Shown piece by piece: positions 8,601-24,086 of a stretch of 64,000 bases of DNA. The DNA lies in contig NZ_CP011125.1 of the NCBI RefSeq assembly GCF_000737325.1, positions 7,254,001-7,318,000 of the forward strand, read 5' to 3'. The notes below the pieces were generated by a model that was given only the letters and a program-made list of their open reading frames with translations, was not told where the DNA came from and ran no database searches. The DNA comes from Sandaracinus amylolyticus. Lineage in GTDB: Bacteria > Myxococcota_A > Polyangia > Polyangiales > Sandaracinaceae. A program made the translations under genes and the position numbers. Each line of letters opens with the position of its first letter. The stretch's first letter is position 1.

Positions 8601-9608
8601 ATGGCGAGCACCCCGAGCGAGAAGATCGACGCCGCGAGCGAGCCCCGCCCGTTCGCATCCAAGCTGCCCGAGGGCCGCCAGCGCTTCCTCGCGCACACGA
8701 TCGAGCACGCGCTCGCGTGCGGTCGCCGCACGCACGCCGACTTCCTGCGTCACTTCCCGCCCGCGGCGATCATGCACGCCCTGCAGGATCACCCCGATCT
8801 CCGCGCGAGCATCATCGAGGTCGCGACCGGTGTCCGCTTCAAGATCGCGGTGAAGAAGTCCGCCGAGGCATGCGGCGTCGATCTGCAGATCGCGCTCGAC
8901 GAAGGCGAGACCCAGCCGAACGTCGTCGTGCAGCAGCTCCACCCCGACGATCGCGTGCGCTACCTCGATGCGCGCGCGCTGTGGAGGTTCCTCTCCGAGG
9001 GCGCGTTCTGGACGACCAGCGCACAGAAGGATCGCGCGCGCCACGCGATCGCGGCCGAGCACATCGCGTTCATGCTCGATCGCGCGCTCGTCGATCAGCT
9101 CCTCACGCACCGCGACATCGTCGAGGGCATCACGGTGACGCGGCTGAGCGAGCTCCTGCCGCGCACCGAGCTCGAGATGCTGCTCGCCGCGGCGCTGAAG
9201 GTCGGCAGCGAGAACAAGCCCTTCGTCGAGAAGACGCTGCTGACGATCACACCGATCACCACGCTGGTGCGGCACATCCCGCTCGACTGGATCTGGGAGC
9301 AGGTCGTCGTGCCGCGCATCGCGGAGGTGCACGGCCTCGTGCCCGAAGCGACCACGATGAGCCCGCCGGTGCAGCCTCCGCCGCCGCTCATGATCGCGTC
9401 GGCGAGCGCGCCGAGCAGCAGCGAGACCGACATCGAGGTGAAGGTCACGATGGACGAGCCCGAGCCCGCGGCGTCGGCGATGGACGTCGAGGTCGACGAG
9501 ATCCTCGGCAGCATGGGCGAGCCCGAGGGCAAGAGCGGCGTGAAGAGCACGAGCGGCCCCGGCACCGGCCGCATCGCGATCCCGAAGCCCGCGCTCAAGC
9601 GCGGATGA
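8601..9608 (+). CDS. Conserved-looking protein of unknown function
   Basis: 335 residues, not recognised. The first 245 residues look globular and mostly helical, with no signal peptide or membrane segment. The tail is Pro/Ser/Glu-rich and disordered, ending in a short basic stretch. AGGAGG sits 4 nt before the ATG, giving a strong ribosome site. It follows the TPR membrane protein by 22 nt, so co-transcription is likely. Its last 14 bases overlap the 3' end of the convergent minus-strand gene, leaving no room for a terminator between them. Confidence 0.75.
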   Translation: MASTPSEKIDAASEPRPFASKLPEGRQRFLAHTIEHALACGRRTHADFLRHFPPAAIMHALQDHPDLRASIIEVATGVRFKIAVKKSAEACGVDLQIALDEGETQPNVVVQQLHPDDRVRYLDARALWRFLSEGAFWTTSAQKDRARHAIAAEHIAFMLDRALVDQLLTHRDIVEGITVTRLSELLPRTELEMLLAAALKVGSENKPFVEKTLLTITPITTLVRHIPLDWIWEQVVVPRIAEVHGLVPEATTMSPPVQPPPPLMIASASAPSSSETDIEVKVTMDEPEPAASAMDVEVDEILGSMGEPEGKSGVKSTSGPGTGRIAIPKPALKRG

Positions 9609-10407
9609 CGCGATCGAGCGGGCGCACGAGCTGCGCCCGCGCCGAGTCGTCGATCGGCGGCTCGACGCCGAACGCGTCCGGCACGCGGTCGCGCGGCATC
9701 CGGAACGTGCCGAACATCACGTCCCAGATCGCCAGGACACCGCCGAAATTCGAGCCCTGCGCCTCGCGCTCGATCGCGTGGTGCCAGCGATGGAAGTCCG
9801 GCGTCGCGATCACGTATCGCAGCGGCCCGAGCGAGAGCCGCACGGCGCTGTGCAGGTAGAGCGTGTGGAGCAGCAGCGCGGGCCCGATCGCGACGAACAC
9901 CCGCGGGTCGAAGCCGAGCAACAGGATCGGCAGCGTCACCGCGACGTTGTCGACGAGGTCGTCGAGCGGGTGCATGCGCGCGGCAGCGAGCCAGTCGAGC
10001 TCGCGCGCCGAGTGGTGGATCGCGTGGAGCGGAAAGAAGCGCGCGTGATGGCGCGCGCGATGGCTCCAATAGGACACGAAGTCGGCGATGACGATCGCAG
10101 TCGCGAATTGTACGAGCAGCGGCCATCGCCCGAAGGGCAGCGGACTGCGCGCGTGGAACACGTCGAGCAGCGCCGTGAGGTCTCCGAGCCCCAGCGCGAG
10201 CGCGACGAGCGCCGCGAACGTCAGCGTCGCTGCGCGCGTGAGAAAGCCCGTGCCGAGCGGCGTCACGAGCCAATAGAGCCAGTCGACGCGCCGAGCGCGC
10301 GAGAGCACCCGAGGCGCAGGCACCGCGCTCGGCCGGAGACGCTGCGCGAGCGCGCAGAGCGGCGCGATCACGAGGAACCCGACGTAGACGATCGCGAGCG
10401 AGCGCAC
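9595..10407 (-). CDS. Sterol desaturase / fatty acid hydroxylase superfamily membrane enzyme
   Basis: 270 residues. The three histidine boxes of the membrane diiron superfamily are present: HRARHH (HX3HH), HAIHH (HX2HH) and HRWHH (HX2HH), placed between hydrophobic segments. Family members use O2 to desaturate or hydroxylate sterols or acyl chains (ERG3, ERG25). As the last gene of a sterol operon that already has a Rieske/dehydrogenase pair for C4 demethylation, a C5-desaturase-like role is the most attractive guess, but fatty-acyl hydroxylation cannot be excluded. It begins with GTG immediately after the TAG of the radical SAM gene, with no spacing, so it depends on read-through or coupling. 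Confidence 0.85.
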   Translation of the reverse strand: MRSLAIVYVGFLVIAPLCALAQRLRPSAVPAPRVLSRARRVDWLYWLVTPLGTGFLTRAATLTFAALVALALGLGDLTALLDVFHARSPLPFGRWPLLVQFATAIVIADFVSYWSHRARHHARFFPLHAIHHSARELDWLAAARMHPLDDLVDNVAVTLPILLLGFDPRVFVAIGPALLLHTLYLHSAVRLSLGPLRYVIATPDFHRWHHAIEREAQGSNFGGVLAIWDVMFGTFRMPRDRVPDAFGVEPPIDDSARAQLVRPLDRVIRA

Positions 10408-11943
10408 CTATCGCTGCAGCTCCTCGATCCGCGGGAATCGCGACCACGGGTCGGACCGCCGATCGAGCGCGTTGTACTCGCAGAAGCTGCGCGCGCGGCC
10501 CTGCGTGTCCGTGATGTGATGGCAGCAGCTCGCGATGCGATCCTGGTCGTACGAGTGACGATCCATGAACGGCTTGATCGCGATCGAGAACATGTCGGTC
10601 GACTTCACGAGCCGACCACCGATCCACCCGGCGACCTTGTGGATCACCGAGCGATCGTCGGTGCCGACGACCTCGCGGATCTCCGACGTCGACATCAGCG
10701 TCTTGTAGGCGACGCGCTCCATCGCCTTCTCCATGTCGACGTAGCGCACGACGTTGTGGACCATCCCGAAGCGCCGCAGGAACACCGTGATCCACCCGCA
10801 ATTCGGGTGACTGCACGGGATCGGCACGAAGTCCTCGCGGCGCATCCGCAGCCGCGCGCGCTCGTGCACGGCGCGCGCGACGTCCGAGAGCGTGAGCCGC
10901 TCCATCGGATCCATGTCGAGCTCGTAGCGCCCCGACCACGTCACCGGCTGCAGCGCGACCAGCTTCACCGCGTGGTGCGCGAGCGCGACGTCGACCACGT
11001 CCCCGAGCTCCGCCTCGTTCACGCCGCGCGCGATCGTCATCGTGAGCTGCATCGGGACCCCGAGCGCGTCGAGCGACTCGATGATCCTGCGCCGCAGATC
11101 GGCCGGCTCGGCGCCGCGGATCGTCTGGTTCGCAGTGCGCGAGAGCGCGTCGAACTGCAGGAGCACCATGATCTTGTCGGCGAACGGCGCGAACCTCGCG
11201 CGCTCCTCCTCCTTCGCGAGGCGGAGCCCGTTCGTCGGTACGTAGATCTTCCCGACGCCGTCCAGCCGATACAGGAAGTCGATCATCTCCCAGAATTGCG
11301 GGTGGAGCGTCGACTCACCGCCCGTGACTTGCACCGAGTCGAGGCGGCCCTTCTGCTCGATGAGCGCGAGAATCGTCTTCTGGAACTCGGCGAGCGGCAG
11401 ATATCGATCGCCCGCGCTCTCCGAATAACAGACCTTGCAGGCGAGATTGCACGCGTCGGTCACCTCGACGAGGATCGTGCAAGTCCGATTGGCACTCTGA
11501 TCGGTGCCATCGCCGGTGTCGCAGCTCTCGCCCGGCGCACAACAGCCGGTCGCGGCGCCCAGGAATTCGGGGATGTGGAACGTGCGGTCCTCGGCGAACC
11601 GGCGCCCCACACGATCCTTGTTCGAGAGCGCGTAGTAGCGCGCATCGCTCTCGACGAGCGCCTCGCTCGCGCCGTGGTCGGGACAGCGCTTGGTCATGAT
11701 CACGCGCCCTGCCCGCTCGAACACGAGCGCCGGCACGTGCGCGAGGCACGTCGGGCAGAGGCTCACGGTGGTCTTCAGCGGGCGATCGACGTCGCGCGCG
11801 CCGAGCGTCGTGACCGCGCGATCGGCATCCATCTCGGCGAGCTCGCGCGAGAGCCGCGCGATGCGCTCGGCGCGCGAGACCGGCGCCGGCGCCATCCCGA
11901 GACGCAGCTTCTTCTTCGGAGTCGTCGTGTTCCCGTCAGCCAC
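10408..11943 (-). CDS. Radical SAM protein of the COG1964 / tetraether synthase (Tes)-like group
   Basis: 511 residues. The N-terminus carries the zinc- or rubredoxin-like pattern LCPTC...CPDHG typical of COG1964. A Cys-rich stretch (GCCAPGESC) precedes the radical SAM cluster motif CNLACKVC (C165, C169, C172), followed by GGESTLH. The C-terminal half has PIPCSHPNC and a final SCCHH...FCEYN block, both Cys sets resembling those of archaeal tetraether synthase. Such enzymes join unactivated carbons of lipid chains; bacterial relatives are candidates for membrane-spanning lipids. The GTG start is chosen because GGAG lies 7 nt upstream and GTGGCTGA overlaps the preceding stop. The family is convincing; the substrate is unknown. 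Confidence 0.85.
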   Translation of the reverse strand: MADGNTTTPKKKLRLGMAPAPVSRAERIARLSRELAEMDADRAVTTLGARDVDRPLKTTVSLCPTCLAHVPALVFERAGRVIMTKRCPDHGASEALVESDARYYALSNKDRVGRRFAEDRTFHIPEFLGAATGCCAPGESCDTGDGTDQSANRTCTILVEVTDACNLACKVCYSESAGDRYLPLAEFQKTILALIEQKGRLDSVQVTGGESTLHPQFWEMIDFLYRLDGVGKIYVPTNGLRLAKEEERARFAPFADKIMVLLQFDALSRTANQTIRGAEPADLRRRIIESLDALGVPMQLTMTIARGVNEAELGDVVDVALAHHAVKLVALQPVTWSGRYELDMDPMERLTLSDVARAVHERARLRMRREDFVPIPCSHPNCGWITVFLRRFGMVHNVVRYVDMEKAMERVAYKTLMSTSEIREVVGTDDRSVIHKVAGWIGGRLVKSTDMFSIAIKPFMDRHSYDQDRIASCCHHITDTQGRARSFCEYNALDRRSDPWSRFPRIEELQR

Positions 11944-12649
11944 CGCTCTGCTCCATGACGAACGCCGACGCGGCGTACACCAGACGACGCGCAAAAGGCA
12001 CGCGCGAGCCCAGTCGCGCGAGGAACGTGCGCGTCTGTCGCGCGGAGAACGCGCTCGTCGCAGCGGCCTCGGCGCGCTCGTGCATCTCGACGATCACGCG
12101 CCGCTCGATCTCGGTCGTGAGCGCGATCAGCGCGTCGTGGGTCGTGCGCACGTGACGCGCTTCGTCCGCGTGGACGCGCTCGACGACCGACAGAACGTGG
12201 TCGCGACGCCGCAGCGCGCACGCCTCGACGTGGTAGTCGAGCGAGCGCATGACGCGCTTCTCGAGGTGATGCGCGTGCGCGAGGAAGTGCGCGACCTTGA
12301 GACGGATCACGTCGCGCCCGTCGCCGTCGTGGATCGCCCACGAGATCGGCGTGTGCGCGCGGATCGCGTGGTTGAACACGTCGCGCTCGTCGACGTCGTG
12401 CACCGGCTCGCCGAGCCTCTCGATCGCGCGGGTGTACAGCGCCGCGTGGCCTCGCTCGTCGCCGGCGTGGCGCTTCAGCTGCTCGGCGAGCTCCGGCCAC
12501 CAGGCGCGCACCGCGCCGTGCGGGAAGTAGTCGGTGACGGTCTCGGGATGACGCTCGCCCGCGCGATAGAGCGCGAGCGCCCACGCGTGCACCGCCGGCT
12601 GATCGACGATGTCGAGGTGCCAGCGCAGCTTCGCCGCATGCTCGAGCAT
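11936..12649 (-). CDS. Ferritin-like diiron protein
   Basis: 237 residues, all-helical, soluble. Two EX2H motifs are visible (ERGH in DERGHAALY and EARH in HADEARHVRTTH), with extra Glu/His positions (LEKR, DYH) between them, as expected for a four-helix diiron bundle. It could be an oxidase, desaturase or oxygenase; no closer family is recognised. The ATG overlaps the preceding TGA by one base, and its end overlaps the radical SAM start by 8 nt. This tight coupling suggests it works with the radical SAM enzyme on a lipid substrate (inference). Confidence 0.75.
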   Translation of the reverse strand: MLEHAAKLRWHLDIVDQPAVHAWALALYRAGERHPETVTDYFPHGAVRAWWPELAEQLKRHAGDERGHAALYTRAIERLGEPVHDVDERDVFNHAIRAHTPISWAIHDGDGRDVIRLKVAHFLAHAHHLEKRVMRSLDYHVEACALRRRDHVLSVVERVHADEARHVRTTHDALIALTTEIERRVIVEMHERAEAAATSAFSARQTRTFLARLGSRVPFARRLVYAASAFVMEQSGG

Positions 12650-12840
12650 CAGTGACCGCTGCACGTCAGGAAGATCAGGAACGCGCCCGCGAGCACGATC
12701 GCGATCACGACCCCGAGCACGACGAGGATCGTCGCGCCGACGACGCCCATCCCCGCGAAACAGCCGACTGCCGCGGTCTTCGCGAGCTCGGCGTCGTCTC
12801 CACTCGGATCACGGGGCGGCGGTGCTTGCTCGGACGTCAT
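12649..12840 (-). CDS. Small single- or two-helix membrane protein
   Basis: 63 residues. A short polar N-terminus is followed by about 35 hydrophobic residues (from TAAVGCFAGMG to LIFLTC), enough for one long or two short membrane helices. No family recognised. It overlaps the Lgt-like gene by 32 nt and ends exactly at the start of the ferritin-like gene (TGATG). The overlaps on both sides support it as a real gene, perhaps a small subunit or anchor for a neighbouring enzyme. Confidence 0.6.
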   Translation of the reverse strand: MTSEQAPPPRDPSGDDAELAKTAAVGCFAGMGVVGATILVVLGVVIAIVLAGAFLIFLTCSGH

Positions 12841-13597
12841 CGGAGCGCTCCGTGGTCGAGACGGTCTGCGGCGCAGGCAGGCGGCGCACGAGGCCGAACA
12901 CGCCGCACGCGATCATCGCGAGGGCGAAGAGCTGGTAGGCGGAGAGCGAGAGCAGATATTCGCGCGAGTCGCGCAGTGGCTCGACACCGAATCGGAAGAC
13001 GCCGTACGCGAGGAGATGGATCGCGAAGAGCCGCCCTCGCAGCACCCCGCGCCGCAGCAGCACGACGAACACGACGCCGAGCACGAGGTGGAACGCGAGC
13101 TCGAAGAGCGCAGTCGGATGGCGCAGCACGCCGTGCTCGTCGGGCAGACCGAGCGCGCTCTCGGTCGGCAGACCGTTGCAACACCCGGCGAACCAACATC
13201 CCACCCGCCCGATCGCGATCGAGAACGGCAGCACCGCCGCGAAGCGATCGTTCGGCGGCTCACGATGTCCGAACACCGGCTTGAGCAGCTCGGCAGTGAG
13301 GAACCCGAAGAGCAGCCCGCCGGTGATCGAACGTCCGGTCGCGAAGATCGCGACGGGAGACTCGATCGGCTCGATGGGCCAGCGCAGGTCGCCGATGATC
13401 GCGGCGACCTTCGCGCCGATCAGCGCCCCGATCAACGTGGCGAGCTGCAGCCCCTGATAGCGGCGCCGCACCGCGGGATCGGTGAACGTGCGCCCCGATG
13501 GAAAGAGCACCGCGAGCGCGAGCCCGGCGAGCACCGGCAGCACGTACGCGGGATGGAATCCGCGCGACAGCGTCTCGATCAGCTCGCCCCCCGGCAC
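12809..13597 (-). CDS. Divergent prolipoprotein diacylglyceryl transferase (Lgt) family protein
   Basis: 262 residues with about seven membrane segments. The Lgt signature is present in the form GRVGCWFAGCCNG, then HPTALFE, and a late Arg/Glu block (FRFGVEPLR). The region where classical Lgt has a His-Gly-Gly reads SITGGLLFG, so that His appears absent by eye. Lgt moves a diacylglyceryl group from phosphatidylglycerol to lipoprotein cysteines. A specialised paralogue placed among lipid-modifying genes may instead act on, or use, an unusual lipid. It starts with GTG, 45 nt after the C8-isomerase-like gene; this is the longest gap inside the operon, and an internal promoter cannot be ruled out. 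Confidence 0.8.
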   Translation of the reverse strand: MPGGELIETLSRGFHPAYVLPVLAGLALAVLFPSGRTFTDPAVRRRYQGLQLATLIGALIGAKVAAIIGDLRWPIEPIESPVAIFATGRSITGGLLFGFLTAELLKPVFGHREPPNDRFAAVLPFSIAIGRVGCWFAGCCNGLPTESALGLPDEHGVLRHPTALFELAFHLVLGVVFVVLLRRGVLRGRLFAIHLLAYGVFRFGVEPLRDSREYLLSLSAYQLFALAMIACGVFGLVRRLPAPQTVSTTERSDDVRASTAAP

Positions 13598-13642: not shown

Positions 13643-14206
13643 TCAGATCTTCCCGCGCGCGAGGTTCCCCACGACCGCCTTCGCGTAGACCTTGAACGTG
13701 CGCGCGACGCTCGTCGCGTCGAGCGTGCTGGACAGCGAGTCGGCGAGCCCGAACGGCAGCATCGCGGGGATCAGCCCTCGTGCGTACTCGAGCGCGAAGC
13801 ACTTGTCGGGCATCCGATAGCCCTTCGCCGCGCCGCGCGGGAGCACGTTGCGATCACCGGGGCGATAGACTTCCTTCTCGAACGAGCCCTCGCGATAGCT
13901 CCACTGCTCGCCCTCGAGGATCATGAAGTGATCCTCGGCCGCGAATCGCCCCGAGAATCCCTCGGTCCCGATCGGCGTGCCGAAGATCATGATGTACTCG
14001 GTGATCGACGAGTGGAGCACCATCATCTGCCCCATCGCGCCGCCGGCGACGTTGAAGATCCACTCGCGATCCTTCGCCGGCAGGATGTGCCCCGGATAGC
14101 GCTCGGAGAGCTCGTTCGCGATCTGCGTGATGATCCCGTCGAGCGGCTGACCGACCGCGCGGCGCGCCACGTCGTGGAGGATCTCGGGCTCGAAGATGTA
14201 TCCCAT
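13643..14206 (-). CDS. ERG2 / sigma-1 receptor-like sterol C8 isomerase
   Basis: 187 residues starting MGYIFEPEILHDVA, the ERG2-type opening. The body matches the ERG2/sigma-1 fold closely: LHSSITEYIMIFGTPIGTEG, SGRF, the cupin-like turn with EGEQWSYREG, PGD, then EYARGLIPAMLPFGLADSL. Known members shift the C8 double bond to C7 during ergosterol synthesis; acidic residues in the barrel act in catalysis. The N-terminal membrane helix of eukaryotic relatives is missing, so this form looks soluble or peripheral. The ATG overlaps the CYP51 stop (TGATG). ERG2 homologues are uncommon in bacteria, and operon position strongly supports a sterol role. Confidence 0.9.
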   Translation of the reverse strand: MGYIFEPEILHDVARRAVGQPLDGIITQIANELSERYPGHILPAKDREWIFNVAGGAMGQMMVLHSSITEYIMIFGTPIGTEGFSGRFAAEDHFMILEGEQWSYREGSFEKEVYRPGDRNVLPRGAAKGYRMPDKCFALEYARGLIPAMLPFGLADSLSSTLDATSVARTFKVYAKAVVGNLARGKI

Positions 14207-15993
14207 CAGTCCGTCTCTTCGATTCGAATCACGTGATTCGGGCAGTACTGCGCGGCCTTCCGCACCTTGTCGTGCAGCTCCGCCGGCGGCCGCGCGACCT
14301 TGAGCATCACCTTGTGGTCCTTGGGGCTGACCGCGAACACCTCGGGCGCTTCGGTCGCGCACACCGCGTGTCCCTGGCACAGATCACGATCGACCTTCAC
14401 GCGCAGCGAAGATCCCGCGCTCGTGCTCGGCGTCGCCGCGACGTGCGCGTGCGCCGGACACCCCGCCGCCGCGGCGGCCTGCTGCACCGCCTGAGGCACT
14501 TCCTTCGCGCCGTTCAGCTCGTGCGCGATCGCGTCCTTGGCCGCCGCCGCGAGCTCGGTGCCCATCTCCATCGTGACGCTCGGCTGCGCGCGCCGGCGAT
14601 AACGAACGCGACAGGGCTCCTTCGGCCCGATCACCAGCCCCTGGAAGCTGGGCGCGATCGCGTCCCCGCACAGGCCGAATTCGAACTGTCCGAGCAAGAG
14701 CGCGAGAATCGCCTTGATCTGCAGGATCGCGAACGCGTTCCCCAGGCACTTGTGGCGCCCGCCGCCGAACGCGATGTACGCGAAGTCCTTCTTGTCCTCT
14801 TCGCGCCCCGGCAGATAGCGATCGGGATCGAACGCGTCGGGATCGCGGAACACGGTCGGAATGCGGTGCGAGACCGTCGGCGACACGACGATCCACGTGC
14901 CCTTCGGGATGAAGAACTGCTTGTACGTGAAGTCCTGCTTCACGACGCGCACGAGCATGAAGAGCGGCGGATGCAGCCGCAGCGCTTCCTTCACCGCGTT
15001 CTCGATCGTCGTCAGCTCGCGCAGCGCGGCGTGGCTGACCGGGCGCCCGCCGCCGAACACCCGATCGACCTCCTCGACACAGCGCTGGAGCTGCGTCGGA
15101 TTCTGCAGCAGCTCGAGCAGCGTCCACGCGGTCGTGACCGAGCTCGTGTGGTGCCCCGCGAAGATCCCCGCGAGGAGCAGCCCGGTGATCTCGTGCTCGC
15201 TGAGCGGCCGACCGTCGGCGTAATTCGACTCCATCAGCGTCTGGAGGAAGTCCTCCCCAGTGCGCTGATGCGCGCGGCGATCGCGGACGATGCCCGTGAT
15301 CATCTCGACCATCCGCACGCGCGCTTTGTCGCGCTTGCGGAAGGCGGGCACCGGCAGGTGAGGATCGATGTACGCGAGCGGCGTCACGCCTCCTTCGAGG
15401 TCGTGATAGACGCGCGCGAACTCCTCGCTCATGCCCTCGCGGAACTCTTTGCCGAGGAGACAGCGGCTCGACGTGAAATTCGTGAGCACGCGACAGAACT
15501 CGACGAAGTCGACGACTCCGCTCGTGCCCCACTCGCGCGTGCTCGCCGCGGTCTCGTGCACCACGGCCTCGCCGTAGGTGCGCATGCGACGATCCTTCAG
15601 CGCGGGCAGCAGCATCTTCAGCTGCTCCGCCATCTTCTCCGGCGTGGCGTCGTAGACGACGTCCTTGCCGAAGACGGGCGTCATGATCTTGTACGCCTCG
15701 GTCGGGCTCAGCACCGCGTCGGGCGCGCGGAACACGGCCTCGTGCGCCTCGGGCCCGAACATCGCGACCATCTCGCGGTTGAACACGCTGAACGCGGCGA
15801 CCTCGCCGAGCTCGCGGTTCGCCCTGAAGAGCAGCTCGATCGTGGCGCGCACGAATTCGACGCTGTGCCCCACCACCGGCAGCCCGCCCGACAGGCGCGG
15901 TGCCGGAAGGAGCCCACTCGGAGCCTCGTCGCGACGGCGCGTCGCGCGACGGACGGTCTCGTCCACCAGACTGCGGAGCTGCATGGGTCCCAT
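14206..15993 (-). CDS. cyp51: Sterol 14-alpha-demethylase CYP51 fused to 3Fe-4S ferredoxin
   Basis: 595 residues. Residues 1 to about 460 are a P450 of the CYP51 type: the I-helix AGIFAGHHTSS, KEALRLHPP (ExxR) and heme loop FGGGRHKCLGN with ligand C416. An Ala-rich linker of about 60 residues leads to a small ferredoxin domain with cysteines C539, C545 and C584 (LCQGHAVC...CPN), the spacing of 3Fe-4S ferredoxins. This is the same arrangement as the Methylococcus capsulatus CYP51-ferredoxin fusion. It removes the 14-methyl group of lanosterol-type sterols and carries its own electron donor. The ATG overlaps the preceding TGA by one base, giving direct coupling to the squalene synthase fusion. 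Confidence 0.95.
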   Translation of the reverse strand: MGPMQLRSLVDETVRRATRRRDEAPSGLLPAPRLSGGLPVVGHSVEFVRATIELLFRANRELGEVAAFSVFNREMVAMFGPEAHEAVFRAPDAVLSPTEAYKIMTPVFGKDVVYDATPEKMAEQLKMLLPALKDRRMRTYGEAVVHETAASTREWGTSGVVDFVEFCRVLTNFTSSRCLLGKEFREGMSEEFARVYHDLEGGVTPLAYIDPHLPVPAFRKRDKARVRMVEMITGIVRDRRAHQRTGEDFLQTLMESNYADGRPLSEHEITGLLLAGIFAGHHTSSVTTAWTLLELLQNPTQLQRCVEEVDRVFGGGRPVSHAALRELTTIENAVKEALRLHPPLFMLVRVVKQDFTYKQFFIPKGTWIVVSPTVSHRIPTVFRDPDAFDPDRYLPGREEDKKDFAYIAFGGGRHKCLGNAFAILQIKAILALLLGQFEFGLCGDAIAPSFQGLVIGPKEPCRVRYRRRAQPSVTMEMGTELAAAAKDAIAHELNGAKEVPQAVQQAAAAAGCPAHAHVAATPSTSAGSSLRVKVDRDLCQGHAVCATEAPEVFAVSPKDHKVMLKVARPPAELHDKVRKAAQYCPNHVIRIEETD

Positions 15994-18900
15994 CACCGTC
16001 CGTTCGCGATCGACGAAGCCGATCCGCTCGCGCGGCGCGCCGTCGCGCCGTCGTCGTAGAGCCGCGCGTACCGAGCGCGCAGCGCGTCGTCGTCGGCGAC
16101 GAAGCGCACGCACTCCGCGATGATCGACTCCACCTCTTCGCGCGAGATCTTCACCGCCTGACCGGGGACGAACATCGCGTCGTTGCCGCGCCCGACGACG
16201 AGCGTCCGCGCCGCCATCCAGAGCGGCAGGAGGCAGAAGAGTCGGATTCCGGTGTGCTGCGGCGGAATCGAGAGCGCATATCGCAGCGCGCCATCGAGCT
16301 GGCGGCGCGCCACGTCGAAGAGCGGCGCGACCGCCGCGTGCGCCTTCGCGCGCACCGCGTCGTCGCAGAGATTCGAGATCGTGATGCCCTGCGCCGCGAC
16401 CGCGGTGCGCGGGACGAAGCTCCACGCGCGCTCGCGATCGTCGGTCACGTCCTTGAGGATGTTCACGAGCTGCAGGCCGGACGCGAACGCCTCCGCGTCC
16501 TCGCGCAGCTTCAGCTCGAGCGCCGCGTCACCGCCGATCTCGGCGACGAACAGGTCGGTCAGCAGATGTCCGACCGTGCCCGCGACGTAATAACAATAGC
16601 GCTCGAGATCGCTCGTCGTGTGCAGCGCGATGAATCCGTCGTCGCCCTTGCGACGGTGCGAATAGAGATTCATCCCGCGCGCCATCTCGCTGACCCAGCG
16701 GATGCACGCGTCCTTCGTCGCGTCGCTCTGCGCGGCGAACACGCGCATCACCACGCGCGAGCGACGCGCGAGCGAGAGCTCGGGATCGTCGTGCTCGATC
16801 GTGTCGAACGCGCGCTCGAACGGCTCGGCATCGGCGCCGTTCTCGAGCACGTCGAGGAACATCGCGAAGAGCCGATCGCGATCGCGCGGATCGACCAGCG
16901 GGTGATCCTCGATCGTGTCCGCGATGCGGCAGAGCAGATAGCCGAGCGTGACCGCGACCTCGAGCTTGCCGGGCAGCATCGCGATCGGCTTGCTGAAGGT
17001 GCGCGACACCTCCGCGAGCGCCTGCTTGCAATAGGCCCAGTCCGCGTCGGCGATCTCGGCCGACACCGACGCGCTCGCCGTGGTCGTGCCCGTCTTCGCG
17101 CGGGTGCGCCCGAGCGCGGGCCGCTCGACGCGGCGCAGGTCGTAGCTCGCGAGCGCCTCACCGACGTCGGCCGCGTCCTGCCACGCGAGGTCCTCGCGCG
17201 CGACCGCGCTGGCGAGCGCGCGCACCGCACGGACCATCGCGTCGCTCGAGGGCGCGCGCGCCGCACACAGCGCACGGACGACCGCCGACGCGTGCGCGAG
17301 CGACGCGCTCTCTCCGGACCACACCGCCGCGTTCGCCGCTAGCCACTTCAGCGCGCGACGCACCGTCGGCTCGCCGGGATTGCCGTCGATCGCGATCAGC
17401 GCGTCGAGCGCGAGCGCAGTGCGCACCACGACGTGCGGCGCGCCGCCGCCGCCGAGCTTCGCGATCGCGGGCCAGCTCCCGTCTTCGCTCTGGCGAGCAC
17501 GGATCCACGCACCCGCGCGCGCGAGCGCGCCCTCGAGGTCCGCGTCCGACGCGCTCGGACGGCGCCGCAGGACGGCGTCGATCGCACGACACGCGAGCGC
17601 GGTCGCCTCGAGATCGCCTTCGTGATCACGCGGGATGTCGCGCGCGGTGCGCGTCGCGAAGCCGCCATGCGACGTCTGACACTCGAGCAGCGCGCGCACG
17701 CCTTCGGCGAGGTCGGTGATCGGCTCTTCGCCCCACGCGGTTCCGTCGAGGAGCAGGAGCAGCAGATCGGCGAGCGCCTCGGTGCGCCACGAGCCGGTCT
17801 CGATCAAGCGCGGCACACCTTCCACGGCGAGGCGACGCCGCGCGATCGTCATGCGCGCGGCCATCGCGGGCCGCATCGTGCCCGACGTGATCACGCGGAT
17901 CATGCGCGCGGCGGGCGCCGCGACCTCCGCGTCGGGAACGCTTCCGAGCACACGCGCGATCGCCTCGAGCTCGGTCAGCAACACGCCGTGCGTGCGCGCC
18001 ATCGCGTCCTGCACCGGCACGTCCGCGGCATCGCTCGCGCGCGGCTCGTCCGCCTCGGGCGGCTGCAGCGGATCGGCCGTGCGCACGAAGCGCGAGAGCA
18101 CGGGGATCGGATGCGTCGGCGTGCTCTCGCCGCGATATCGATCACGCAGTCGGCGCGGAACCGCGATCGCCGCGGGCCACTGCATCCACTCGCCGTACTG
18201 CGAGAGCGCGCCCGGCACGCGGAGGAGATCACCGTCCTTCGTCGCGTCCGCGACGGTCGCGCCGATCGCCTGCGCCGCGATCTTGAGGAACGCGCTGCCG
18301 AAGCTCCGGCGTCGCAGATCCGACGCCGCGAGGATCATCATCGTGCGGCGCCGCTCCGCGTCGCTCGCGCGCAGCGTGCGGAACATCGCGCGGCGCACCT
18401 CCGTCGCGCTCGCGTCCTCGCGGCGGAAGCAGTGATAGAGCGCGTTCGAGAGCAGCTCGGGGATGTACCCGCGGCGCTCGCGCGCGTACTCCTCGACGTT
18501 CGCGGCGCGCGCCACGGCGCGCGCGTCGAGCATGCCCATCGTCATGCCGATCGCGGTCATCGGGTGCACGTGACCGAGCGCGTCGCCGACGAGCATCGTG
18601 TCGCCGCGGCCGAACTCCGCGCGCGGACGGAATCGATTCGCCGCCCAGCCGCTCGGGCCACGCTCGATCGCCGCGCGGAACGCCGGGACCATCTTCGGCG
18701 GCAGCACCGCGTGGAACGCGTCCCAGAGGAAGCCCGGGGTGCGCGCGCGCGCGCCGAGGCTCACCGGCACGTCGAGACAGCCGCGGACCACGTCGTCGCT
18801 GATGCGATAGAAGAGCGCAGGCCCCGGACCGCCGAGCACGACGTGCCCGAATCCCTCGAAGGGCAGCTCGCAATTCCGCAGCTCGACCGCCGCCATGTAC

Positions 18901-19433
18901 GAGAGCAGCGTGCTGTTCTCGCGGTATCCGAGCGACTGCCGCACCACCGATCCGCGCCCGTCGGCGCCGATGATGCGCCCCGCGCGCAGCTCGAACGCGG
19001 TGTGCGACTCGCGATCTTCGCAGCGCAGGAGATCGCCCTCGACGGCGGTCACGCGTGCCATCGAGATCCACTCGATGCCCGGCACGCCACGCGCGACGTC
19101 GCGGATCGCCTCGACGATCTCCGAGTGCTCGGCCGACAAGGCGATGCCCTCGGCATACGGCATCTCGATCGGCGCGCTGCGATCGTCGGGACAGATCACG
19201 AACCCGTAGCCAGTGCGCGCGTGCGCCCCGTCGAGGTGCCCGATCCGCAGCTCGTCGAGCACCTCGACCGCCGTCGGATGGAGCCACTCGCCCGCGAAGC
19301 GCCGCGCGGCGCGCGGATCTGCCTCGAGGAGCGCGACCTTCGCGCCGCGACGCGCGAACGCGATCGCGGTGGTCGCACCGACCGGACCGCCGCCCACGAC
19401 GGCGACGTCGTAGCTGCTTCGACTCGCACGCAT
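15993..19433 (-). CDS. Fusion: squalene-epoxidase-like flavoprotein, degenerate toroid, squalene synthase
   Basis: 1146 residues in one frame. (1) Residues 1 to about 370: FAD monooxygenase with GGGPVGA at 14-20, GEWLHP, and GDALGHVHPMTAIGMTMG, close to the GD...HPLTGGGMT block of squalene epoxidase. (2) About 520-790: helical repeats with QW-like units (CQTSHGGF, RQSEDGSWP) recalling half a terpene-cyclase toroid, but without DXDD or DCTAE, so probably non-catalytic. (3) About 800-1115: squalene synthase with SRTF, DTIED (839-843), YCYYVAGTVGHLL and NILKDVTDD (N991, D995, D999), the two metal-binding motifs. It should join two farnesyl diphosphates to squalene. A GAGG site lies 5 nt before the ATG. 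I know of no described fusion of this kind. Confidence 0.9.
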   Translation of the reverse strand: MRASRSSYDVAVVGGGPVGATTAIAFARRGAKVALLEADPRAARRFAGEWLHPTAVEVLDELRIGHLDGAHARTGYGFVICPDDRSAPIEMPYAEGIALSAEHSEIVEAIRDVARGVPGIEWISMARVTAVEGDLLRCEDRESHTAFELRAGRIIGADGRGSVVRQSLGYRENSTLLSYMAAVELRNCELPFEGFGHVVLGGPGPALFYRISDDVVRGCLDVPVSLGARARTPGFLWDAFHAVLPPKMVPAFRAAIERGPSGWAANRFRPRAEFGRGDTMLVGDALGHVHPMTAIGMTMGMLDARAVARAANVEEYARERRGYIPELLSNALYHCFRREDASATEVRRAMFRTLRASDAERRRTMMILAASDLRRRSFGSAFLKIAAQAIGATVADATKDGDLLRVPGALSQYGEWMQWPAAIAVPRRLRDRYRGESTPTHPIPVLSRFVRTADPLQPPEADEPRASDAADVPVQDAMARTHGVLLTELEAIARVLGSVPDAEVAAPAARMIRVITSGTMRPAMAARMTIARRRLAVEGVPRLIETGSWRTEALADLLLLLLDGTAWGEEPITDLAEGVRALLECQTSHGGFATRTARDIPRDHEGDLEATALACRAIDAVLRRRPSASDADLEGALARAGAWIRARQSEDGSWPAIAKLGGGGAPHVVVRTALALDALIAIDGNPGEPTVRRALKWLAANAAVWSGESASLAHASAVVRALCAARAPSSDAMVRAVRALASAVAREDLAWQDAADVGEALASYDLRRVERPALGRTRAKTGTTTASASVSAEIADADWAYCKQALAEVSRTFSKPIAMLPGKLEVAVTLGYLLCRIADTIEDHPLVDPRDRDRLFAMFLDVLENGADAEPFERAFDTIEHDDPELSLARRSRVVMRVFAAQSDATKDACIRWVSEMARGMNLYSHRRKGDDGFIALHTTSDLERYCYYVAGTVGHLLTDLFVAEIGGDAALELKLREDAEAFASGLQLVNILKDVTDDRERAWSFVPRTAVAAQGITISNLCDDAVRAKAHAAVAPLFDVARRQLDGALRYALSIPPQHTGIRLFCLLPLWMAARTLVVGRGNDAMFVPGQAVKISREEVESIIAECVRFVADDDALRARYARLYDDGATARRASGSASSIANGR

Positions 19434-20648: not shown

Positions 20649-23600
20649 TCAGACGTGGAGTCGGCTCGGACGACTCGCGCTCTCGCCGCCGTGCTCGCGG
20701 AACTTCGCTCGCTCGGCGCGGCGCGACTCGTACAGACCGAGCGCCCAGACCGGGAAATAACGGCGATAGAGCACGTAATCGAGCAGCGCCGTGTGGAAGA
20801 AGATCCCCTCGGCCTCCTGCTTCGGCCACGCGCCGTCGTCGGACTGCTTCGACGCGAGCCAGCGCGCGGCGCGCTCGATCGGCGCGAAGTCGGGATGGCG
20901 CGCCTCGAGCAGCGCCGTCATCGCCCACGCGGTCTGCACCGCCTGGCCCTCGTCGTGGTCGACGTAGCGGCCGACGATCACGCTCGAGCGATGCTCGCCC
21001 CACGCGCCGTCGGCGCGCTGACGCTCCTCGAGGAAGCGGCACGCGCGGCGAATGCGTGGATCGTGCGGCGGAACGCCACCCGCGAGCAGGCCGCGCACGC
21101 CGAACATCGTGCCGTACACGAAGTGCACGCCCCACATGCCGGGCCACGATCCATCGGGACGCTGCGTGCGCGTGAGCGACGCGACGGCGCGCGCGATCGC
21201 GGTCTCGCACTCGTGCGCGAGCTCGCTCTGCGGCCAGCGGTGGACGAACGCAGCGAGCGCCGTGACGCACGACGCCGTGCACTCGACATACGACTTCTCG
21301 GTCATCGAGTCGCCGAACATCTCGGCGGGGTTGATCCACTCGAGCGAGACGTCGGTGCGGCGGGCCTCGTAGCTCCCGAAGCCACCATCGGTGTTCTGGC
21401 AGCGCAACACGAAGCGCGCCGCCGCCTCCATCGCTTCGCGCGTCGGGCTCCCCTCGGGCGACTCGAGCCGCGCGAGCATCGCCTCGGCGGTGCAGTCGCT
21501 CACCGGCCATCCGTGCCAGACACCGGCGAAGCAATATCCGCCGGTCGGATCGATGCGATCGTGATGGCGCTCGCGCCCAGTGCCGCGCGGGATCTGCTGC
21601 GTGACGAGGAACGTGTCGGCGCGGCGAAGGGCATCGCGCACGTCGTTCCCGCAGTGCGGCGCGGCCGCGGCCATCGCCTGCGCGGCGAACGCGGTGTCCC
21701 ACGACGCGCTGCGCGCGCCGGTGACGCGCGCGCCGTCGAGCTCGTCCTCCCACACCCATCCTTCGAATCGCTCCGCAGCGATGCGCAGATCGGGATCGTT
21801 CGGATCTTCGATGAACAGCGCGACCTGATCGAGCAGCCCGCTGACCGGGGAGATGCAGGTGTGGTTGGTCGAGCGGAGCTCGTAGCGGATGTGCTCGCGC
21901 AGCTCGGCGAGCACCGTCGCGCGCTTCTCGCGCGACTGCAGGCGATCGACCGCGCCGAGCACGCGATATCCGACGTGCAGCGCAGGAGTCCACGGCGTGT
22001 GGATCTCGGCGGTGCGCAGCGTCTCTCGCGCCTTCGCCCAGTCGACGGACTCCCACCCTCCCGGGAAGATCTCGTCGCGAATCGCGAGGATCCGCGGCGT
22101 GACCGGCGCGCTCCACTTCTCGCCGTAGAGCACGGCCATGCCGAGATAGATGAGGCGCGTGTGGCAGTAGAAGCGGCTCGGATGGAACGGCAGCCAGCGC
22201 GGCGCGCGCCACGCCTCGGGCAATACCGCGCTGACTCCCTCCCACGAGTAGAGGTTCAGCACCGCGAGCCAGAGCTTTCCCCAGCTCGGCACCGCGACCG
22301 CGCCGCCCTCACGGCGGATGAACTCGTGCGCACGCGCGATCAGCGGGTCGTCCTTCGCGAGGCCGAGCAGACGGCACGCGACGAAGACGAGGAGCGTCAC
22401 GAACAGATAGGGCTCGCTCTTCTCGTGCAGGCCCCACGTTCCGTCCGCGAGGCGCGTGCGCTCGAAGTGCTTGAGCACCGACGCGCGACGCTCCGCGCTC
22501 AACGGGCGGCCCATCGCGTGCCAGCCCATCACGTACTGCGCGGCGAGCATCGGGCACCACACGACCTCGCCCTCGAACGAGCCGTCGTCGGCCTGCTCCG
22601 CGATCAGCGCGCGCGCGCCGCGGCGCAGTGAGTCACGCGCGGAGAAGTCCTCGTTGCCCGAGCGCGGCAGTCCGACGACTTCCGCCTTCGCGGTCGACGC
22701 TCGCAGTGCCGCCCCGTATCGCTCCTCCGCGGTGCGCGGGGCGCCGAGGCCCTGCTTCGTGCGCGCGGGCAGCGCGTTCGTGAGGTGCAGCGTGCCTCCG
22801 AAGAGCCACGCCATCCGCTGCCCGAGATCGCTCGCGACGCGCCCGGTGTGGCGCACGTTCCCGGTCGCGATCGCGTCCTTCACGAAGTCGCGCGAGCTGC
22901 GCAGCATCGTGCGGAGGAACGCGCGCCCGAACCCGACGTGACTGCGATCCTCGCCCGAGAGGAACCCCATCGAGCGCAGTCGCTCGCGCGGCTTCTCGCG
23001 CCACAGCTCGTAGATCGCGCGGCGCATCGCGATCGACTCTTCCGCGTCGTCCGCGAACACCTCGTAGAGCCCGACCGCGAGCATCTCGCGCACCCGGGTG
23101 CGGCGCGTGCGCTCGCGCCGATAGGCCGCGAAGCTGGGCGATTTCGCGATCGCGACCGCGTCTTCGAGCGCGAGCGTGAGCCCGATCGCAGGCAGCGGCG
23201 GATGCGTGCCGGCAGCGTCGCCGATCAGCGCGAGGCCTTCGCGCCCGAGGTCACCGCGGGGCCTGAGATCGACGCTCGCCCACGAGGGGGCGCTCTCCGC
23301 GAGCGCACGACCGAACGCCTCGCGCAGACCGTTCGGCAGCACGGCCGAATACGCCTCGAAGAGCGCCACTCCGCCCTCGCGCGGGATCGCGAGCGAGTGC
23401 GGCACTTCGCAGAGCACACGCACACGGTGCGCGTCGATGCGATAGGCCATCACCGGCCCGGGGCCGCCGAGGAAGATGTGCAGGAATCCCTCGAACGGCA
23501 GCGCGTGGTGCTCCACCGCGATCCCGGCGATGCGCGAGCTCGCCGCGACGCCGTGCGCGAGCGGGCCGGGCGACGTCGCGAGCGGCCCCGATGCGACACG

Positions 23601-24086
23601 ACCGCTCGCGCCGATGATCGACGGAGCGCTGACGGTGCGCGAGGTCGTGTGCGACGAGGTCCCGATGCGACGCTCGTACGTGAGGCTCTGTCCCTCGATG
23701 CGCGTCGCGCGCGCCCACGGCACGAGCTCGATGTGCTCGTGGTGCTCGCAGTGCGCGCGCAGCGTCTCGACGAGCACGGCGTGCTCGACCGCCATGCCGA
23801 AATGCCCGGCGGCGTACGGCAGCGCGATGGGCTCGCTGCCGTCCTCGGGGAACACGACGTAGCCCTTGCCGGTCGCGTACGGCGTCGCGGGCGTCAGATC
23901 GACCCCGAGCGAGTCGAGGATCGCGAGCGCCGGCGGATGGAGCCACTCGCCCGCGAGGCGATCCGAGCTGCGCGGATCGGCCTCGAGCAAGAGCACGCGC
24001 AGCCCTCTGCGCGCATGCGCGAGCGCGCTCGCACAGCCCGCCGGGCCGGCGCCGACGATCGCGACGTCGTAGTGCGAGCCGCTCAT
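20649..24086 (-). CDS. Fusion: squalene-epoxidase-like flavoprotein and oxidosqualene cyclase
   Basis: 1145 residues. Residues 1 to about 400 form an FAD monooxygenase with GAGPAG at 12-17, GEWLHP, and GDAAGTHPPLPAIGLTLALEDA, paralogous to the N-terminus of the squalene synthase fusion. From about residue 475 to the end is a full oxidosqualene cyclase: PSWGKLWLAVLNLYSWEG, FHPSRFYCHTRLIYLGM, the catalytic DCTAE at 864-868, QNTDGGFGSYE and other QW repeats. V862 two residues before DCTAE is the lanosterol-synthase-type residue (Ile in cycloartenol synthase), while H858 is the cycloartenol-type His. One chain may therefore epoxidise squalene and cyclise the product. A stand-alone cyclase is the norm; this fusion is unusual. 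Confidence 0.92.
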   Translation of the reverse strand: MSGSHYDVAIVGAGPAGCASALAHARRGLRVLLLEADPRSSDRLAGEWLHPPALAILDSLGVDLTPATPYATGKGYVVFPEDGSEPIALPYAAGHFGMAVEHAVLVETLRAHCEHHEHIELVPWARATRIEGQSLTYERRIGTSSHTTSRTVSAPSIIGASGRVASGPLATSPGPLAHGVAASSRIAGIAVEHHALPFEGFLHIFLGGPGPVMAYRIDAHRVRVLCEVPHSLAIPREGGVALFEAYSAVLPNGLREAFGRALAESAPSWASVDLRPRGDLGREGLALIGDAAGTHPPLPAIGLTLALEDAVAIAKSPSFAAYRRERTRRTRVREMLAVGLYEVFADDAEESIAMRRAIYELWREKPRERLRSMGFLSGEDRSHVGFGRAFLRTMLRSSRDFVKDAIATGNVRHTGRVASDLGQRMAWLFGGTLHLTNALPARTKQGLGAPRTAEERYGAALRASTAKAEVVGLPRSGNEDFSARDSLRRGARALIAEQADDGSFEGEVVWCPMLAAQYVMGWHAMGRPLSAERRASVLKHFERTRLADGTWGLHEKSEPYLFVTLLVFVACRLLGLAKDDPLIARAHEFIRREGGAVAVPSWGKLWLAVLNLYSWEGVSAVLPEAWRAPRWLPFHPSRFYCHTRLIYLGMAVLYGEKWSAPVTPRILAIRDEIFPGGWESVDWAKARETLRTAEIHTPWTPALHVGYRVLGAVDRLQSREKRATVLAELREHIRYELRSTNHTCISPVSGLLDQVALFIEDPNDPDLRIAAERFEGWVWEDELDGARVTGARSASWDTAFAAQAMAAAAPHCGNDVRDALRRADTFLVTQQIPRGTGRERHHDRIDPTGGYCFAGVWHGWPVSDCTAEAMLARLESPEGSPTREAMEAAARFVLRCQNTDGGFGSYEARRTDVSLEWINPAEMFGDSMTEKSYVECTASCVTALAAFVHRWPQSELAHECETAIARAVASLTRTQRPDGSWPGMWGVHFVYGTMFGVRGLLAGGVPPHDPRIRRACRFLEERQRADGAWGEHRSSVIVGRYVDHDEGQAVQTAWAMTALLEARHPDFAPIERAARWLASKQSDDGAWPKQEAEGIFFHTALLDYVLYRRYFPVWALGLYESRRAERAKFREHGGESASRPSRLHV

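Follow-up and report, generated by a model that had tools for sequence, protein, structure and literature searches.

A sporadic bacterial gene cassette combines a Tes-fold radical SAM protein with a ferritin-like protein, an Lgt-like protein and a cysteine-ending microprotein and probably acts on membrane lipids

We analysed a window of 64,000 nucleotides from the soil myxobacterium Sandaracinus amylolyticus (genome G000, 10.33 Mb in a single contig, NZ_CP011125.1), in which four genes on the minus strand constitute one functional unit, a self-contained cassette. They encode an Lgt-like integral membrane protein (12809-13597, 262 amino acids), a microprotein of 63 amino acids (12649-12840), a ferritin-like, presumed diiron oxygenase resembling MiaE and aldehyde-deformylating oxygenase (ADO) (11936-12649, 237 amino acids from the ATG at 12649) and a radical S-adenosylmethionine (SAM) protein with the fold of tetraether synthase (Tes) (10408-11943, 511 amino acids from the GTG at 11943). 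The cassette was previously undescribed and has a sporadic distribution that spans at least four phyla of bacteria; a search of the literature available without subscription revealed no Lgt/radical SAM/ferritin cassette of such composition. We propose that its core consists of an Lgt-like transferase, a microprotein with a C-terminal cysteine, a diiron oxygenase and a radical SAM enzyme of the Tes fold. In general terms, the cassette is best read as a module that joins or tailors lipids, because the genes form one unit and the Tes fold with its ligands, the full diiron set and the Lgt-fold partner point to membrane lipids, which are probably the substrate. The original prediction, made from the sequence of the window, had suggested a lipid-joining or sterol-lipid conjugating module. 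Its lipid part is retained here, whereas its sterol part is contradicted by the distribution of the cassette (see below).

As had been predicted, the four genes are coupled by overlaps. The Lgt-like gene shares 32 bp with the microprotein gene, the stop codon of which overlaps the likely ATG of the ferritin-like gene in a TGATG at 12649 (an alternative GTG start lies upstream at 12664), and the GTG start of the radical SAM gene overlaps the stop of the ferritin-like gene by 8 bp. The G+C content at third codon positions of 0.84-0.91 fits real genes.

A scan of our collection with the radical SAM protein as query found 14 loci. Nearly all loci on sufficiently long contigs keep the order Lgt-like, small membrane protein, ferritin-like and radical SAM, a synteny seen in Myxococcota, Verrucomicrobia, Planctomycetes and Gammaproteobacteria. 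Exceptions are two Sandaracinaceae genomes (G004 and G008) and G013, in which the set is split over contigs. Of 379 genomes of Myxococcota, seven encode the ferritin-like protein at E < 1e-90 (G000, G002, G004, G013, G253, G290 and G363), and members of the radical SAM clade (E < 1e-200) were present in exactly these seven and in none else, while G295 contained a fragment of the radical SAM gene. The probability that such identical presence sets arise by chance is about 5e-15 if kinship is ignored. Furthermore, pairwise distances between loci correlate for ferritin-like and Lgt-like (r = 0.90), ferritin-like and radical SAM (r = 0.88) and Lgt-like and radical SAM proteins (r = 0.90; Mantel p = 2e-4). 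The conserved gene order, the matching sets of genomes and the correlated distances together exclude a chance association, and the co-occurrence search that had been suggested as a check thus bears out the association of the four genes across genomes.

Wider draws of genomes yielded no carriers beyond the respective starting genome (one of 293 Gammaproteobacteria, one of 178 members of the Lysobacter family and one of 239 members of the Roseiconus family), which indicates a patchy distribution and also limited our sample. A search for the ferritin-like gene on plasmids gave no match. The occurrence of an intact yet rare cassette in distant phyla suggests that a self-sufficient function spread by horizontal transfer. 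As the cassette is small and portable and is present in cultured isolates, including Lysobacter dokdonensis, Pleionea sediminis and Roseiconus nitratireducens, its function is directly testable.

Only a few known enzymes, Tes among them, link two inert sp3 carbons in lipid tails. The radical SAM protein of the cassette resembles archaeal Tes/GDGT-MAS (Mj0619; PDB 7TOL/7TOM) in its fold, in a rubredoxin-like site, in the radical SAM (RS) cluster and in the cysteines of the C-terminal cluster. GDGT-MAS was its PDB match by sequence (E = 5e-40, about 25% identity), and the predicted model (mean pLDDT 80, residues 51-511) aligned with 7TOM over 413 residues with a VIA Z of 33.5, covering all domains of the Tes fold. 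The next unrelated structural match was MoaA (Z 18.3), and the second tier included the peptide maturases SuiB and SkfB. The motifs named in the original prediction (LCPTC...CPDHG, CNLACKVC, PIPCSHPNC and CC...FCEYN) all occur in the protein, and nearly all of them are unchanged across 17 homologues. The metal sites comprise C63/C66/C87/H90 (rubredoxin-like), C134/C135/C141/C155 (N-terminal auxiliary cluster), C165/C169/C172 (RS cluster) and C382/C473/C474/C488 (C-terminal auxiliary cluster), in addition to the invariant C377. In an alignment with part of the Tes sequence and with eleven further relatives from Myxococcota, for which the Tes ligands were taken from the literature (PMC9433317), the cysteines of the rubredoxin-like (CxxC...CxxH), RS (CxxxCxxC) and C-terminal sites are conserved with Tes. 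The N-terminal [4Fe-4S] motif of Tes (C73xxxC77xxC80 and a histidine), in contrast, is rearranged to CC-x5-C...C, and the additional invariant C155 and C377, the partner genes and the bacterial hosts further set the cassette protein apart.

At the level of families, the NCBIfam Tes model was matched by all 17 members of the radical SAM clade (best E = 1.2e-60), but the protein of the window scored 192.8 bits against a cut-off of 450 (NF045702). Its best NCBIfam match was TrsS (NF045646), again far under the cut-off (222.4 versus 490 bits). The clade is separate in our tree with 100/100 support and includes two unlabelled rows, L053 and L079, which are carriers too; the placement of Tes itself is unsure owing to a long branch and a partial sequence. 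The likeness to tetraether synthase covers the fold and nearly all metal ligands; it does not reach the cut-off or include the clade and the N-terminal cluster.

These similarities raise the question whether the radical SAM enzyme is a membrane-spanning-lipid synthase of the Tes/Mss type, which would couple the ends of two phospholipid chains, with the Lgt-like protein, the microprotein and the diiron protein in presenting or accessory roles and no lipidation step. The complete Tes fold would fit such a role, as would the conserved ligands of the C-terminal cluster, at which the substrate-sulfur bond forms in Tes (PMC9433317). Mss, a bacterial membrane-spanning lipid synthase that is described together with Ger, is reported to share the Tes architecture and to act on membrane lipid chains (PMC13274423). 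However, the low score, the altered N-terminal cluster and the separate clade (in a tree with a partial, long-branched Tes sequence) argue against it. Moreover, a need for Lgt-like, diiron or microprotein partners is not known for either Tes or Mss; the latter, which we compared by its description in the literature only, is reported with Ger and not with such genes. We regard this explanation as rather unlikely, and carbon-carbon bond formation by the radical SAM enzyme in general as possible though doubtful.

The ferritin-like protein is likely a diiron oxygenase, as judged from its predicted structure. None of the families in Pfam and NCBIfam was matched above its cut-off, and the protein did not fall into the curated MiaE or ADO sequence families. 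Its model (pLDDT 93) shows a four-helix fold, with ADO-type enzymes and MiaE tRNA hydroxylase as best matches (Z about 14-16). Foldseek alone returned no match with E below 0.001, and helical bundles easily reach middling Z values; it is the combination of a Z of 16 over 180-190 residues with a complete ligand set that makes the assignment likely. The ligands are E37, E70xxH73, E135 and E168xxH171 (numbered from GTG 12664), all of which are invariant in 17 homologues except for the nearly invariant E37. Unlike MiaE and ADO, the protein has further invariant residues (H130, H132, H145, H195 and E199) and its own set of gene partners.

The Lgt-like protein belongs to the Pfam family LGT (PF01790; 90.3 bits, gathering score 24.9) but stays below the Lgt equivalog TIGR00544 (50.5 bits, cut-off 118.9). 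Compared to E. coli Lgt (structure PDB 5AZB), the equivalents of R143, R239, E243 and R246 are invariantly kept as R131, R202, E206 and R209 (R131 and R202 in 15 sequences), while H103 of the HGG motif is replaced by threonine in the window and by T, V, A or M across the homologues, and N146 and E151 are replaced by cysteine. Roles of H103, R143 and R239 have been described (PMC8048626). It also differs from Lgt in being encoded beside the microprotein gene and tied to a radical SAM gene. The absence of the usual histidine, correctly noted in the original prediction, says little on its own. Three other Lgt-family proteins of S. amylolyticus lack it too (two have tyrosine where alignable) and also show GC...GC(C), so that neither the GCxxxGCC motif nor the lost histidine is a strong mark of a special paralogue, and these changes alone do not show a loss of transferase function.

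The strongest clue, missed in the original prediction, is the invariant C-terminal cysteine of the 63-residue microprotein. A small protein is encoded between the Lgt-like and ferritin-like genes in every readable carrier and follows a constant design of a variable polar N-terminus, one long hydrophobic, transmembrane helix and a cysteine just past it; in the window the C-terminus reads ...FLIFLTC-SGH (Cys60). The cysteine lies 3-10 residues from the C-terminus in 19 of 19 homologous positions; leucine at -5 is present in 17 of 19 and glycine at -6 in 12 of 19. The probability of this cysteine pattern by chance is about 1e-11 (15 independent loci, 2% Cys). In G004 and G008, where the Lgt-like and radical SAM genes lie apart, each part is accompanied by its own microprotein ending in xTCxGH. 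Basic residues before the helix suggest an N-in, C-out topology, in which the cysteine would face the periplasm like the cysteine of a lipobox.

A small protein with an invariant cysteine that is encoded between maturase-like enzymes may also be read as the substrate of a lipid-anchored system similar to ribosomally synthesised and post-translationally modified peptides. The radical SAM and diiron enzymes would then modify the microprotein, and the Lgt-like protein would only anchor it. A variable N-terminus with a conserved C-terminus and the presence of SuiB and SkfB among the second-tier structural matches are in line with this. On the other hand, the conserved cysteine sits on the distal side of the helix, which is probably periplasmic, and thus out of reach of cytosolic enzymes, there is no leader/core pattern or protease, and no peptide maturase matches nearly as well as Tes, which leaves this explanation improbable.

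Since the microprotein cysteine probably faces the periplasm and is encoded next to the Lgt-like gene, we propose that it is the target of the Lgt-like protein. The combined mechanism would comprise binding of phosphatidylglycerol by the Lgt-like protein via its retained arginine residues and transfer of a diacylglyceryl group to the microprotein cysteine at the membrane's outer face, as true Lgt does with prolipoproteins. The diiron and fatty-acid-hydroxylase-like proteins (for the latter, see below) may oxidise a lipid chain with O2, as their folds and ligands suggest. The radical SAM enzyme, to judge by its fold and conserved ligands, would take a hydrogen from an unactivated carbon of the chain and form a C-C or C-S bond with the help of the C-terminal [4Fe-4S] cluster, as in Tes. 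As this oxygen-plus-radical modification of a membrane lipid with Lgt-like lipidation of the microprotein is stated broadly with respect to the bond, we consider it quite possible, if somewhat short of probable; for the lipidation step taken by itself our expectation is lower and stays doubtful. A more specific version would be a new kind of lipoprotein biogenesis, in which diacylglyceryl is placed on the C-terminal cysteine of an anchor-only microprotein lacking a mature domain and the radical SAM enzyme and diiron oxygenase then join or remodel the chains; the product would be a lipid that is encoded genetically, tethered to a protein and possibly spans the membrane. This we rate as quite improbable.

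Several points weigh against the combined mechanism. A Tes fold, which here comes from a predicted model, is by itself no proof of a lipid substrate; a literature search found no established substrate for TrsS, the closer NCBIfam model; and the N-terminal cluster motif departs from that of Tes. With the equivalents of H103, N146 and E151 missing from its sequence, transferase activity of the Lgt-like protein appears uncertain. Many microprotein C-termini also carry a basic residue, and the residues before the cysteine (often FG[AIL]C or LxTC) resemble a lipobox only loosely. A bacterial Tes relative that is always accompanied by a diiron oxygenase, an Lgt-like protein and a microprotein ending in cysteine suggests a so far unrecognised class of bacterial membrane lipids or lipoproteins, with consequences for the reading of lipid biomarkers and for the reach of Lgt-type chemistry.

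Two further genes accompany the cassette. The stop codon of the radical SAM gene directly abuts the start of a gene for a membrane protein of the fatty-acid-hydroxylase superfamily (9595-10407, minus strand, 270 amino acids), a recurrent accessory that most carriers have next to the cassette. It thus usually belongs to the cassette and is not a sterol gene by context. In carriers outside the Sandaracinaceae and G013, the Lgt-like gene is preceded by a gene for a membrane protein of 110-140 amino acids (L018:7940-8335, L019:5241-5636, L022:4186-4524, L023:3312-3656, L024:7911-8243, L026:5009-5371 and, duplicated, L017:7203-8051). It has no significant Pfam match, and its invariant D40, H44, R48, E54, H58, D94, H99, E106 and H110 raise the possibility of a new family of membrane metalloproteins.

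Lgt-like proteins are paired with members of this radical SAM superfamily more widely, since a commoner type of pair (type B) in Myxococcota combines a TrsS-like radical SAM gene with an often adjacent Lgt-like gene. Unlike the cassette, these pairs lack a ferritin-like gene, and most of their radical SAM proteins lack two of the C-terminal cluster cysteines. S. amylolyticus itself encodes a closer TrsS-type relative followed by an Lgt-like gene at about 6.994-6.996 Mb (L027:9173-11354), a second COG1964-like pair of a kind common in Myxococcota. Ahead of this pair lies a small membrane protein with two helices that ends in GIGACYATLFVG. A microprotein is not a rule for every such pair: among Myxococcota type-B/C loci, a small membrane protein with a cysteine near its C-terminus was found at L027/L084, L036/L086, L092, L102 and L110, and none was found at most of the loci. 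In other myxobacterial genomes, two or three Tes/TrsS-like radical SAM genes stand in tandem (L043:8491-13090 and L044:8883-12081), with no Lgt-like neighbour within the stretch read.

The original prediction had placed the cassette within a sterol operon and considered sterol-lipid conjugation. The gene for an ERG2/sigma-1-receptor-type sterol C8 isomerase (13643-14323, minus strand), the last sterol gene before the cassette, indeed lies 45 bp upstream of the Lgt-like gene, but nothing sterol-specific follows downstream, and the cassette is appended to the 3' end of the sterol cluster rather than embedded in it. In favour of a sterol role, the cassette directly follows erg2 in both G000 and G002, and Sandaracinus makes cholesterol from a sterol cluster of this kind (PMC12004948). 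Yet among the loci read, homologues of sterol genes stand beside the cassette only in this genus. In G004 and G008, which belong to the same family, the cassette and the oxidosqualene cyclase are on different contigs. Seven carriers (G013, G253, G398, G399, G400, G402 and G404) lack any squalene/oxidosqualene cyclase, and in G395 and G396 matches to it are only marginal; the carrier contig of G253 is the same as that of G403. The cassette is thus neither restricted to sterol producers nor generally linked to sterol genes, and its connection with sterols is local to a single genus. Its distribution largely refutes a sterol role of the cassette, which makes a sterol-tailoring or sterol-conjugating module very improbable, and its position in Sandaracinus is no ground for assigning its genes to sterol synthesis.

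The sterol cluster itself, on the minus strand, contains several fusions. A protein of 1145 amino acids (20649-24086) joins a squalene epoxidase-like FAD domain to an oxidosqualene cyclase, and G002, G004 and G008 carry the cyclase in equally long open frames. Another protein of 1146 amino acids (15993-19433) combines a squalene epoxidase-like domain with a squalene synthase domain, separated by a middle part that, judged by eye, resembles a prenyltransferase/cyclase toroid. In the gene at 14206-16107, a cytochrome P450, probably CYP51, is fused to a C-terminal 4Fe-4S ferredoxin.

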